64,000 bases of DNA from Cubamyces lactineus (lineage: Eukaryota; Basidiomycota; Agaricomycetes; Polyporales; Polyporaceae). Shown piece by piece: positions 3,346 to 8,416 of the stretch. Made by a program: the position numbers and the translations under genes. Within the stretch, counting starts at the first letter, position 1; the number at the start of each line of letters is the position of its first letter. Location of the stretch: assembly GCA_022376465.1 (NCBI GenBank), contig JACDTU010000004.1, forward strand, positions 2,418,001 to 2,482,000. The letters are read 5' to 3'. The notes beneath the pieces were generated by a model. It saw nothing but the letters and a program-made list of their open reading frames with translations, did not search any database and had not been told where the DNA came from.

Positions 3346-5932
3346 CTAGCGGGATTCATGGACGAGGTCCATGTACGGCGGCGGGTGCGCGACGCGCTCA
3401 TGCTCGCTCTCGAGGTCGGGCACCCGATACGGCGGAGGAGCGTGCCCATGCGATTCCTCCCCTTCGTCGTCCACACCTACACCTACGCCTACGCCCACAC
3501 CTACGCCGCCGCGCACAGGCGGCTCCGTGAGCTGCCCGAAGCTTGCGTGCGGGCTCTGCGCGCGCACGGGGATCGCTGGGGGCTATCGTGCACGCGCGGG
3601 GCGCCTGGGGCACGGAACTCGGACGAGTCGATGGATGGCGGCGGGTCGGACGGGTCGTCCATCGGGGGCGGGGGTGGTGGGAGCAATCCGTCATCGTCGA
3701 CCCCCACGCCAACCCCAACTCCGACGCCCACTCCTACCCCGACACCGACCCCGGCAGCATCCGCAGCAGCAGAGAGGGCCTGCTGCTCGAGCGCAAGCCC
3801 AAGAGCTTCCATCGCAGCCGCCCCGTCGTCCATGCTCATGTTCGCGAGCCCGGTCACGTCGGCGTCGTGCGTCGCCATCTCGAGCGTCGGCGGGGGCGTA
3901 TACGCGCGTTGGGGTAGCACGTCCATGTACCCATCAAATTGCGCATTCGGTGCGAATCCGAACAGCGTGCCCTCGCCTTCGAACACGACGTCGGGCAGGC
4001 CAAGCGGTGGTGGGGGCGCGAGCGCAGGGTCATCTGCGGGCGGCACGTAGATCTCGTGCTCGGACTCGAGGAACGTCGGGAGGCGCGTCGACGTCGACGC
4101 CTCCGCCTCCGCTTCAGTAGACCAGAATGGCGGCGGGGCTTCGCGCTCCTCGAACGGGGGCGGAGCGCCGGCAATGACGCTCGGGCCGGCCTCGTACTGC
4201 GGGACCTCGACGTCGTCGTCCTGGCGGACGGTGCGCGCAGGCGGGCGGTCGTGCTTCTTGTGGTACGCCTCGTCGAGGGACGGCTCGACCTCGGGGAGCG
4301 GCGCGCTCGGCGGGAGGATGCGCAGCGGGAGGGACACGGTCGAGACGCGCTCGGTGTGGCTGGCCATGTTCATGAACGTCGCGTGCACGAACAGTCGGAA
4401 GGAGACGGAGTGCATGAGCGTGCTCTGCGTGATCGTCGCGCAGTCTGCGTCGGGCTCGAACGTGTAGTGGCCCTCTGGGGGGAGGTGGCCTGGTGGGCCT
4501 GGGAGAGGCGATTGTGAGGGAGGATGCAGGACGAGGCGGACGCGGATAGCTCGCGATGGGTGCAGTCGGCACGATGCACCAGACAGAGCCACAATCTTGC
4601 GATCCCCGTGCTCACCACTGCGCGAGATGAAGTCTACTCCCTCTCTTGAACTTGATGGGTCGGCGGCCATTTTCTGCGGCGAAGGCGGCGGCGGCCCCGC
4701 GTCGTCTTCCAACTCCGGATGCGCCCCGCCCTCCTTCCCCTCCTTCTCCTCACCTTCCTCTGGCTTCCTGATCGCAATATACCTAACAAGCTCCGCCCTC
4801 AAATTCCGCAACCGCAAGCCCTGCTCAAGGACGAGCTCCGGCGCAGGCGCCGGGACGGTGATATATATCGGGATCGCCTCCCCCGCCTTGAACGTCGTCC
4901 GCGGGACCTGCACCTCCACCCGGCTCGGCTCCTCGATCACGCGCGTCTCGGGCACGGGGTAGAGCGCGTGCGTATGGGAGGTGTACCGGCGCGTGTGCAC
5001 GACGAACGCACGCGAGCGCAGCGGAGGCGGCGTCGGGGGCGTGGATGGGGATGCAGCTGGGGATGGGGATGGGGGCGGGGGTGAGGCGGCGTCGTCGGAA
5101 TCATCGGCTGGATAGAGCGCGGCGGAGAGAGTGTGCTCGAGCGCGGATCGGGGCGTGTGTATACACTGTGGTGTATCTGGCGGGAGAGGGATCGAAAATG
5201 GGAAGCTCGCTCGCTGCTGTCCGGCTGCGTCTGCAGCGCTGGAGAGTATGACCTCAGTGTGCGCGAGCTCGATCTCGCGCGCGTGCGCCCTTTCGACTGT
5301 CCGGAGGGAGACCGTCCTACAGCAAACAAACAAACAAGCAAGCATGCACACAGCGTCGTCAGTCGGCGATGCCCACACAGTCCACAGCACGCACCCGCAT
5401 ATCTCAGACCTCAAGCCCGACAAGAGAGGACAGGAGAAGAGCGCGATGCTCCAAGAATCCTGGTACAGAGGCAGAGGGAGGGGGGTACTCACACTTTCCG
5501 CCACTTGCACGGCGCGTCCGCGCTCTTGATCTGGAGCTCGCCCTCGATCGCCGCGCGCTCGCCGTCCGCGCCGAGGTAGCCCTTCTGGAAGTGCACGCCG
5601 TCCGCGGCGGGGACGATGAGGATCTGCGGGCCCCCTGCACCAACTTCAGCCCCGGCCCCGGCCCCAGTCCCTACGCTGAGCCCTACGCTAAGCCCGGCAC
5701 TACCGATATCGCCGCTCACACCTGCCCCGAGTCCCCCTCTGTCATTTCCTACGTTTATGGCGTCGCGATAGAGGGCGCTGGGCGCGAGACCGACGTCGCA
5801 CGCGGAGACGAAGCTGTCGGAGGAGCTGTCGGAGGAAGAGGAGGGCAGGGGCGGGGGCGCGTCCGACTCGGACGGTTCTTGGGTGTACGTCGGGGGCAGG
5901 TCTGAGTCTGCTGGGTCCTCGGGGGTGGGCAT
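3346..5932 (-). CDS. Arrestin-related trafficking adaptor (alpha-arrestin) with PY motifs
   Basis: Three exons on the minus strand: 5932-5493, 5316-3594 and 3531-3346, together an exact 782-codon frame. The N-terminus is Pro/Ser/Gly-rich and contains a PPTY. It is followed by arrestin-like beta-strand segments (QILIVPAADGVHFQKGYLG, GELQIKSAD, VEVQVPRTTFKAGEAIPIYI) that continue to about residue 480. The tail is disordered and Pro-rich. The last exon ends with two PPPY motifs (PPPYRV and PPPYMD), the WW-domain docking sites expected of ART adaptors that bring Rsp5/Nedd4 ubiquitin ligase to plasma-membrane transporters. Two Gly-Val dipeptide tracts flank the last intron. The 62-bp last intron is inferred from the reading frame; without it the protein would end early and lose the PY motifs. 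Confidence 0.82.
3471..3512 (+). repeat. Hexanucleotide-type tandem repeat encoding Gly-Val (tract 2)
   Basis: Degenerate CACCTA/CGCCTA units. Read on the minus strand they encode a Gly-Val run in the last exon of the arrestin gene, just upstream of the two PPPY motifs. Confidence 0.7.
3699..3755 (+). repeat. Hexanucleotide-type tandem repeat encoding Gly-Val (tract 1)
   Basis: Degenerate CCAACC/CCGACG units encoding about nine Gly-Val pairs on the minus strand, near the end of the long arrestin exon. Third-position variation shows that it is not a perfect, recently expanded satellite. Confidence 0.75.
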
Positions 5933-6908
5933 CGTGGTGTGCTGTATGTCGGGATCGCAATGTGTGTTCGATGTTGACGTTCAAGCTGAAGCTCAAGTCG
6001 TGGGGGTTGGTCAGTAGCTAGCGATTACCACGACGCGTCTCTGTCAGGGCTATACGCCGGAAAGAAGACTGATCGCTGTGTGTGACGAATCGACGCAGAC
6101 AGCCAAGCTGGAGGTAGCAGTGGTCGTTGTGCAGGAGGGGGATGTTGGGAGAGGGACGGGCAGGAGGCATGATATGATGGCCCGCGAGCGGATGCGGAGT
6201 CTTCTTGTCCTTGTAGCGTGCACCGCGTTGCCCGTCCGCAGTGCCATGATCAATCCATCATCTCACCATCGGCGCTACTCTCCTCCACCGTCAAGCGCTG
6301 CACTAGTGCTGTCGATATTGCATCGCTTGCTATTGGTGGTTGGGCATCTACGTATACGTGCATGTCTAGTAGCTAGACAGGGACCATTACCGTCATACGC
6401 GCGCATCTCTGTGCTGGCACGTTCCTGCTCACGGATCCAATTAATACGTGCTTACTGGAAGCACATACATACATAGATGATAGATCCACTGCGCACGCAA
6501 ACTTAAACGCGATGCCAACTCCCGACCGACGAGCAGCATCCTGTCAGAAAGCAAACATTCATCACACTCAAGCAGCTAGAAGCCCGATCGTGACTCGAGG
6601 GCTAATACTGTCAACCAGTTACGATACTGCTCCGAAGCACTCCAGGCTTCGAACAGGCTGCGCAGAAGCCGACGTCGGGTTTAGCTAGAGGACGCCATGC
6701 ATACTATAACGTACGCATGCGAATCGGACATATCGTCAAGACGGCCGGTGAACAGCGGACATGCTGACAGATGATATCTTGCATTGATCACAGCGTACAT
6801 ACATACGTCCTTCTTTGATACCTATGAACTCTTCTGAGAAGGCATCGGGGGGATGTGCCTCGGGCGTCGAGGAGGCACTCACACCAGTGCAGACAATCGT
6901 CCTAGGAC
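5933..6908. other. Non-coding upstream region of the arrestin gene
   Basis: No protein-like frame on either strand. It should contain the arrestin promoter (minus strand) and, near its right end, the 5' part of the putative snoRNA host transcript. Confidence 0.5.
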
Positions 6909-6958
6909 GTGAGTGAGCACCCCGTTTGAAGTCCCGGGCTGGAACATAAATGCGACGA

Positions 6959-7125
6959 TCTTGGCTACGATTTGACCTCGCGCTGTCGTAGGAATGAGCG
7001 ACGGCGGAGGATACCTTGATAGCCAGCCAGCGCGCACGCACGCATTGCGTGCGAAAAAGACCAGATTGCACGCATATCGAGCGGTGAATGGTTTTGTGTC
7101 ATTGGCAGTGTGGTACGATACATAT
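6959..7125 (+). ncRNA. H/ACA-type snoRNA-like unit, copy A
   Basis: The 5' hairpin has outer stem GGCTA (6963-6967) with TAGCC (7020-7024), inner stem CCTC/GAGG (6976-6979 with 7007-7010) and an upper stem GTCG/CGAC, leaving a two-sided internal loop like a pseudouridylation pocket. A candidate ACA box is at 7120-7122. The 3' half is less clear, although a strong GCACGCA/TGCGTGC arm follows the first hairpin. It shares the TCTTGGCTAC start and the internal-loop layout with copies B and C, but with different stem bases. Confidence 0.45.
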
Positions 7126-7310
7126 CGTGCCTAGAAGCAAGTACCTAAGCGGCTAAGCCTCAGAAACGGACACACGCTACACGCTACAAGTGCGACTTAC
7201 CCAGGTACGTACAGAAATCGCGACGAGATGTTTCCTACATTCGTATACATTAGTGCATCAACGCCTGCACGAGTGGGCGGCTCGAGAAAGGGAAGCTGAG
7301 AGGAAGGTTG

Positions 7311-7449
7311 GTTCTTGGCTACACATTGACCTCGCTCAACCACGGAGGAAGGCAGACGAGGCTTCGATAGAGCCGGGATACGACGGGAACAGTCCGCAGG
7401 CCACGCAGAGGAAAACCGGATATATATTTGAGGGACCTGTAGTACATCT
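7311..7449 (+). ncRNA. H/ACA-type snoRNA-like unit, copy B
   Basis: 5' hairpin: GGCT (7317-7320) pairs with AGCC (7371-7374). An internal loop follows, then CCTCG (7330-7334) pairs with CGAGG (7357-7361). An exact H box (ANANNA) ATACGA lies at 7378-7383. 3' hairpin: ACAGTCC (7389-7395) pairs with GGACCTGT (7433-7440) with one bulge. ACA follows at 7444-7446, three bases from the inferred end. The order hairpin, H box, hairpin, ACA and the length of about 139 nt match H/ACA guide RNAs, which direct pseudouridylation with Cbf5, Nop10, Nhp2 and Gar1. The target is unknown. Confidence 0.55.
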
Positions 7450-7621
7450 CGAGCTGATAGGACGTCAGCGACATATCAAGATCGTTGTGCATCAGCGAAC
7501 GCACCTGATCGACACATAAGAGATGGGCAACTATGTGAGGGATGTTCTTCCCGGAGTGTAGCACGCCGTCAATGAGGTGAATTGTGACGGCACGGCTTCG
7601 TTTGTGGGAAGCTAAAGCTCG

Positions 7622-7774
7622 CTCTTGGCTACACATTGACCTCGCTCTACCATCGCCGGAGCGGTAGGCGAGGCTTCGATAGAGCCGTCATACGTTCCTC
7701 TCAGAACAAACAAAGACGAGAAGCAAGGGGGGTATCATCTATAAATACAGCAGGTGGTTGATACTGATACATCT
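7622..7774 (+). ncRNA. H/ACA-type snoRNA-like unit, copy C
   Basis: Near-duplicate of copy B in the 5' hairpin: both internal-loop strands are identical (ACACATTGA on the left, CTTCGATAG on the right). The upper stem differs but still pairs: CCTCGC (7640-7645) with GCGAGG (7668-7673), and CTACC with GGTAG. The 3' hairpin is GTATCA (7732-7737) with TGATAC (7759-7764), followed by ACA at 7769-7771. The 3' end ACATCTC is the same as in copy B. An H-box candidate AGAACA lies between the hairpins. Confidence 0.55.
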
Positions 7775-7910
7775 CAGAAACCTGCGGAGAGTCGTCAGAC
7801 GATGATGCTCGGGGTGACCGTGGCGATGCACTTACAGCATTGACAATCAAAGGGACACAATGGGGTATCTGAGGGACAGTGAGAATTGGACGGGCGAGAG
7901 CGCGAACAGG

Positions 7911-8416
7911 CTACTGACCACCGCCTTGATCTGTTATGCCGAGCTCGTCTTCCTTGTAGATGGCGAACCCTTCCTCTGTCTTCCGACCTGGCGTGCGTGT
8001 CAGATCGCGCAGCAGTGATTCGGATTAGAGGGAGACTTACGAGGACCTGTTCCCCGGGAGTCCTTGAAGCGCTGCTCCTCCTCCCGGTCCAGTTTTGGTT
8101 TCTTGAGTTTTGCCGCAGCAGGAGCGGACTTGTCCGCCTTGCGCGTCTTGCTCTCCTTTGCAGAAGGGAGAGCAGCGGAGGGGTCGAAGACGGTCTCTGG
8201 TACCTTGCGTTTTACAGGTTTGGACGGAGCAGCAGCCTCTTCTGCATCCACGCCCGCGTCCGCGTCGTCGCGTTTGCGCTTGGCGGACTTGTCCTTTTTC
8301 TTCTTCTTTTTCTTGTCGGCGGGCTGAGAGGGAGACGAAGATGATGCTGCGGGCAGTGCGGCCGAGAAGGCCTTGCCTTTGGAAGCGAAAATCTCGTCTA
8401 TTTCTGAGGCGGGCAT
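7911..8416 (-). CDS. DUF1764-family basic nuclear protein
   Basis: Two exons (8416-8041 and 7987-7911) give 150 residues. The N-terminus MPASEIDEIFASKGK and the C-terminal RRKTEEGFAIYKEDELGI segment, which spans the splice junction, are the conserved ends of the DUF1764 family (PF08576). Between them lies a Lys-rich low-complexity stretch with a run of seven lysines and several nuclear-localization-like patches. The molecular function of the family is unknown to me; the composition suggests a nuclear or nucleolar protein. It is transcribed divergently from swi1. Confidence 0.82.

Follow-up and report, generated by a model that had tools for sequence, protein, structure and literature searches.

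Behind a DUF1764 gene of the polypore Cubamyces (Trametes) lactineus lie three related hairpin units, and the question is which strand they are read from, how many of them amount to a complete RNA and what such an RNA would act on. An earlier note on this DNA had placed them on the plus strand, as three H/ACA RNAs carried by a non-coding host gene that is spliced and serves no other purpose. H/ACA was the right class to claim. In the reading proposed here, units 1 to 3 are tandem copies on the minus strand, and one of the three, unit 3, is a predicted complete H/ACA RNA.

Three tandem units behind a DUF1764 gene

A 39-nt core occurs three times, at 6950, 7304 and 7614 of the window (the whole stretch of 64,000 nt that was analysed), with 64%, 100% and 87% of the reference copy, and these copies bear out the claim of three related units. 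Unit 2 as a query against the whole genome finds itself and unit 3 only (E 1.1e-14, 86%) and misses unit 1. The pattern ATCGAAG...GGTCAATG has three matches genome-wide, which are units 2 and 3 and the unrelated C34:1318040. Folding gives an internal-loop hairpin in every unit, again as had been claimed; the hairpins fold on both strands, so the strand is ambiguous by eye.

Table 1. Features of the repeat cluster and the neighbouring gene, in window positions
Feature	Position	Strand	Details or evidence
DUF1764 gene, 161 aa, directly upstream of unit 3	7774..8416	-	exons 8416-8041, 7987-7919, 7868-7836, 7781-7774
Unit 3, predicted box H/ACA guide RNA (hairpin-hinge-hairpin-ACA tail)	7540..7686	-	SNORA16 match, hairpin 2 test, rRNA pairing, relatives
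Unit 3 hairpin 1 with guide pocket	7626..7686	-	arms UAUCGAAG (7681-7674), UCAA (7639-7636)
Unit 3 hinge, H-box-like AGAGCGA	7619..7625	-	14 nt past pocket top
Unit 3 hairpin 2, lower stem CUUCCC/GGGAAG	7547..7611	-	constrained energy -21.3
Unit 3 ACA box plus 3 nt, ACAUCC	7540..7545	-	sequence
Unit 2 hairpin 1	7316..7374	-	guide arms 7369-7362, 7329-7326 letter-identical to those of unit 3
Unit 1 hairpin	6962..7025	-	5' arm diverged

The spliced translation of the DUF1764 gene is identical to a database protein of Cubamyces lactineus (P0001), and its product scores 86.3 bits for Pfam PF08576 (the scored copy has one extra K). The stop codon precedes the repeat, with the usual CCF end of the family intact, and unit 3 hairpin 1 follows it after 87 nt on the minus strand. 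The description of the region as lacking any coding signal holds for 6909-7773 and fails beyond, where a coding exon of this gene ends (7774-7781) and 7782-7830 falls within its last intron. From about 8636 on the plus strand, a divergent neighbour of DUF1764 has an ARID-domain-like translation by eye. The homologue P0002 (Cubamyces menziesii) has the C-terminus CCKFVAAVTDSISV in place of CCF, as if its gene model read through the last intron (window 7835-7782). TATA-like stretches are found on the minus strand at 7426-7420, 45 nt ahead of unit 2 hairpin 1, and at 7747-7740, 53 nt ahead of unit 3 hairpin 1. A TATAGATGATACCC-like stretch upstream of unit 3 (7747-7735, minus) is kept by eye in the protein tails P0008, P0017, P0019 and P0046 described below, and may be a promoter element. 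A promoter and terminator scan of bacterial type, unsuited to fungi, found nothing.

Architecture of the units

On the minus strand unit 3 has the layout hairpin, hinge, hairpin and tail. Its length is about 147 nt, counted from hairpin 1 to 3 nt past the ACA, the predicted 3' end. The second hairpin was compared with first-order Markov resamplings on which the H/ACA spacing was imposed, one ACA being scored per minus unit. For unit 3 the energy of -21.3 stands against a resampled mean of -3.0 and a resampled best of -19.2, and 0/100 resamplings are as good. The ACA, at 7545-7543, comes right after the stem and one A. A prior run with 30 resamplings, which took each ACA at least 50 nt into the given stretches, gave a further ACA at 7559 with no structure before it. 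The hinge box is less regular: AGAGCG fits ANANNA at five of six positions, the last A being absent, and by eye the 14-nt hinge holds no exact ANANNA. In each of the three units the H box fits at five of six positions only. We regard minus-strand unit 3 as a near-canonical two-hairpin H/ACA RNA, as judged from its predicted folds and boxes.

The other two units are less complete. On the minus strand no second hairpin is recognised in unit 2 before the ACA at 7231 (37/100 resamplings as good), and that of unit 1 before the ACA at 6856 is not above chance (19/100). Units 2 and 1 thus have no complete second hairpin before an ACA and are not filed as complete H/ACA members. Beyond hairpin 1, unit 2 has little in common with unit 3, while within hairpin 1 its loop has changed and both guide arms have stayed letter-identical. 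The guide hairpin of unit 2 would be either held by selection or the sole part that was copied. An imperfect palindrome with overlapping 20-nt arms, 75% complementary, lies at window 6887-6920, inside the possible 3' part of unit 1.

The guide pocket and its probable rRNA target

Pairing of the pockets was scored on a human rRNA segment and on partial yeast rRNA segments; the resampled rRNAs were made from the yeast ones. On the minus strand the pocket of unit 3, like that of unit 2, pairs with rRNA by 12 bp (11 Watson-Crick, 1 G-U) around the U in UUGA-U-[C/U]-CUUCGAUG; 2 and 0 of 300 resampled rRNAs, respectively, pair as well. Within the same partial rRNA no target is found for the minus-strand pocket of unit 1 (156/300 as good) or for hairpin 2 of unit 3. 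The motif AACGUGAG presumably contains the 2944/4491 site; counted back from its U in the human segment, the paired U is 79 nt upstream, a spacing equal to that from 4412 to 4491 and from 2865 to 2944. The numbering of the target site is anchored on this distance, with AACGUGAG taken as the 2944 motif. A C stands 5 nt past the paired U in the human segment, as for m5C2870. We also considered yeast Psi2944 (snR37/ACA10) as the target and rejected it, as counting nucleotides gives 2865. The 5' pocket of unit 3 thus probably aims at the uridine that is Psi2865 in yeast 25S and U4412 in human 28S rRNA, as judged from the pairing and the count.

The human segment is the one printed in an available part of PMC12477938. 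In an H/ACA guide as defined in excerpts of PMC2780460, 9-13 bp to rRNA flank the target U, and the H or ACA box follows 14-16 nt further on; the unit 3 pocket, with 12 bp and 14 nt from the hinge box, falls within this definition. Available passages of PMC3542256 give U2865 and U4412 of 28S as the sites of yeast snR46 and human ACA16, and U4491 as that of human ACA10. Those of PMC8307265 assign Psi2865 to snR46 and Psi2944 to snR37, a number that differs for snR37 from the 2499 in PMC3542256. The earlier note had recognised no RNA with this sequence; the guide arms, as it turns out, match the site of an already known guide, snR46/ACA16. Parts of the target rRNA motif are also printed in a human 28S primer (excerpt of PMC5418926) and in fungal primers (excerpts of PMC3112068 and PMC3606605), and the PMC3606605 primer with the motif appears under a protein name. 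C39, from 42300, near the genome's only 5.8S match, reads by eye like the terminal part of a chromodomain-bearing polyprotein of Ty3/gypsy type.

An Rfam scan of the window reports no family at its cut-off. With lax thresholds (6400-8050, up to E 10), SNORA16 (RF00190) is the sole family, matching 7689-7540 on the minus strand with 21.1 bits where the cut-off is 35 (E 0.2 for 6400-8050). Across the 36.3-Mb genome, where 43 of the 761 first-look candidates were scored, SNORA16 has no reported match up to E 10 other than unit 3 (E 1.02). Below its cut-off the same model also matches 12 of 14 prokaryotic control genomes. By itself the Rfam score hence proves little, and with 21.1 of 35 bits unit 3 is not filed under RF00190.

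Translated copies in the protein tails of relatives

We compared the best 120 of 289 DUF1764 homologues with window 6800-7790. Five match at E<1e-3, each of them best at the minus-strand hairpin 1 of unit 3: Trametes cubensis (P0008, 3e-16), Cerioporus squamosus (P0017, 2e-12), Ganoderma adspersum (P0046, 2e-10), Ganoderma sinense (P0026, 3e-10) and Trametes cingulata (P0019, 2e-9). Two of them, P0008 and P0046, reach unit 2 too (3e-4 and 5e-4). The other 115 of 120 show no match at E<1e-3, and many of these stop at or near the CCF end and are hence uninformative. When 20 mononucleotide-shuffled regions were compared with the DUF1764 proteins, 0 matches were obtained. The tails of P0008 and P0026, used as protein queries, retrieved nothing but themselves, and a gapped guide-hairpin pattern gave 4 matches in viral_contigs, close to the 2 to 3 roughly expected by chance. 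A sixth relative, P0025 (Laetiporus), was considered and rejected: it matches elsewhere in the region (E 0.002), and by eye its tail is without the 5' guide arm.

The repeat might be thought to belong, in some species, to the DUF1764 coding region as a real extension of its C-terminus, since it is found in five database proteins. The same DNA is, however, read in three different frames (one frame in three proteins and one other frame each in the remaining two), and the stop codon and intact CCF end of the window gene come before the repeat, which leaves this explanation practically no chance. The five polypore proteins are, as far as codons and frames can tell, over-extended gene models whose tails represent putative translated snoRNA, that is, annotation artefacts. 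Such snoRNA-derived tails are usable as hidden comparative data, and they are a practical caution for gene annotation.

Back-translated, the compared stretches of the tails hold at least 1, 8, 8, 3 and 4 base changes in P0008, P0017, P0046, P0019 and P0026. Inside hairpin 1, forced changes number 1, 2, 3, 3 and 2 in the same order of proteins. In the guide arms (7681-7674 and 7639-7634) there are 0 forced changes in five of five relatives, where the codons show compatibility and not identity. P0019 stops at 7632, short of the 3' side of the lower stem. Four stem pairs carry a forced change; one is kept on the minus strand only (P0046), one on the plus strand only (P0026, unless the adjacent bulge shifts) and two on either strand. 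With this split the stems of the relatives leave the strand undecided, and what the relatives say on the strand rests on the putative guide arms and on the orientation behind DUF1764.

Strand of the RNA

Much of the earlier description depended on the plus strand. Internal-loop hairpins and ACA triplets do occur there, the triplets at 7120, 7444 and 7769, by the unit ends given in the earlier note. The hairpins before them are nevertheless at chance, with 66, 15 and 100 of 100 resamplings as good or better for units 1, 2 and 3, and an extra plus ACA of unit 3, at 7747, fares no better (100/100). For the hairpin 1 pockets on the plus strand, 105, 102 and 300 of 300 resampled rRNAs are as good in units 3, 2 and 1, so no rRNA site stands above chance. 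The end given to the third unit on this strand, 7774, is the position of the minus-strand DUF1764 stop codon. The splice-like signals said to bracket each unit are not confirmed: donor-like GTRNGT occurs twice on the plus strand in 6900-7830 against 1.54 expected (232/500 resamplings reach 2).

Two points do speak for the plus strand. Hairpin 1 folds at -31.7, -22.9 and -28.7 there and at -23.8, -21.0 and -28.5 on the minus strand (units 1, 2 and 3), a slight preference in three of three units that counts against the minus reading, and the one G. sinense stem pair noted above holds on plus alone. Hairpin 1 differs at five pairs between units 2 and 3; 2 of these are kept only on the minus strand, 0 only on the plus strand and 3 on neither. 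Taken together, the plus-strand reading, with its three H/ACA RNAs and its dedicated non-coding host that is spliced, has, in our judgement, hardly any chance. Instead, the putative RNA comes immediately after a protein gene of the same direction on the minus strand, and the codons of all five relatives exclude a donor-like GT shortly before it (assuming no indel), as described next.

Proposed mechanism and alternatives

With a probability of roughly 0.88, we propose that unit 3, on the minus strand behind DUF1764, is an H/ACA guide for the uridine equivalent to Psi2865 and that units 2 and 1 are its tandem copies. We computed the strand, the hairpins, the pairing, its place against the known site and the preservation of both guide arms across five relatives. 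For expression, protein binding, modification and the processing route of unit 3 we infer the following course. The RNA would be made in the direction of DUF1764, by 3' UTR read-through or from its own promoter just upstream. The transcript would be trimmed to hairpin, hinge, hairpin and tail, and H/ACA proteins would then bind. The 5' pocket would hold the 25S rRNA segment UUGA-UN-CUUCGAU(G), and the pseudouridine synthase Cbf5/dyskerin would convert the held U into pseudouridine at the yeast Psi2865 site, next to the peptidyl-transferase centre. Unit 2 would retain the guide hairpin with no visible 3' half, and unit 1 would have drifted.

The RNA could be released from a 3' UTR exon, from a transcript of its own promoter, or from an intron with another donor site. 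Intronic release, from a 3' UTR or a non-coding host that is spliced, agrees with available passages of PMC3596301, in which the snoRNAs of three basidiomycete C/D clusters are all intronic, and with donor-like GTRNGT on the minus strand, 5 in 6900-7830 against 2.33 expected (43/500 resamplings). Against it, the donor-like GT of GTATGAC at 7693-7692, just 5' of unit 3, is excluded in five of five relatives (assuming no indel), the gene models of these relatives treat unit 3 as exon, and 2 of 20 Neurospora H/ACA genes are intronic in the part of PMC2780460 that counts them. We therefore consider intron release of a minus-strand guide RNA doubtful. The hairpin might also be a regulatory 3' UTR structure of the DUF1764 mRNA and no guide RNA at all, as it begins 87 nt past the stop codon and keeps this position in the relatives. 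This would leave unexplained both the 12-bp pairing with rRNA around an established pseudouridine site and the second hairpin, whose ACA and following 3 nt are correctly spaced, and it seems very unlikely.

As to the minor units, a tentative and rather unlikely suggestion is that they are undecayed extra guides. Unit 2 would then be a one-hairpin or oddly ended RNA for the same site, serving dosage or back-up, and unit 1 would be retargeted to another RNA, making the stretch behind DUF1764 a snoRNA nursery of polypores.

Relation to known guide RNAs

The kind of RNA and its target are already known; the instance and its genomic place are new. Like yeast snR46 and human ACA16 (SNORA16, RF00190), unit 3 is of H/ACA class and its 5' pocket would aim at the same uridine. 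It differs from them in scoring below the Rfam cut-off, in lying behind DUF1764 in polypores, in its two extra partial tandem copies and in a 3' hairpin with no known target. Nc ACA10 and Nc ACA16 of Neurospora crassa resemble it as H/ACA RNAs in or behind the 3' UTR of a protein gene. As described in excerpts of PMC2780460, however, both are orphans with other host genes, and their names are unrelated to human ACA10 and ACA16; the 20 Neurospora H/ACA genes counted there include 16 intergenic, 2 intronic and 2 in 3' UTRs. Fungal polycistronic C/D clusters share the tandem arrangement of multiple snoRNA units, but they are of C/D class and, in available passages of PMC3596301, intronic in basidiomycetes, while the units here are H/ACA and only doubtfully intronic. 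Among the matches listed from titles and abstracts of the open-licence literature, neither the unit 3 RNA nor a linkage of DUF1764 to a snoRNA appears, which does not prove absence. In the available parts of a 2016 survey of Pleurotus ostreatus (PMC5040776), seven snoRNAs are given and snR46 is unmentioned.

The putative RNA is linked to DUF1764 in five relatives from Trametes, Cerioporus and Ganoderma, and unit 3 likely supplies the guide for a pseudouridine of the peptidyl-transferase centre in polypore fungi. In yeast, according to the passages available of PMC1766470, loss of snR46 alters tRNA binding and raises nonsense suppression.
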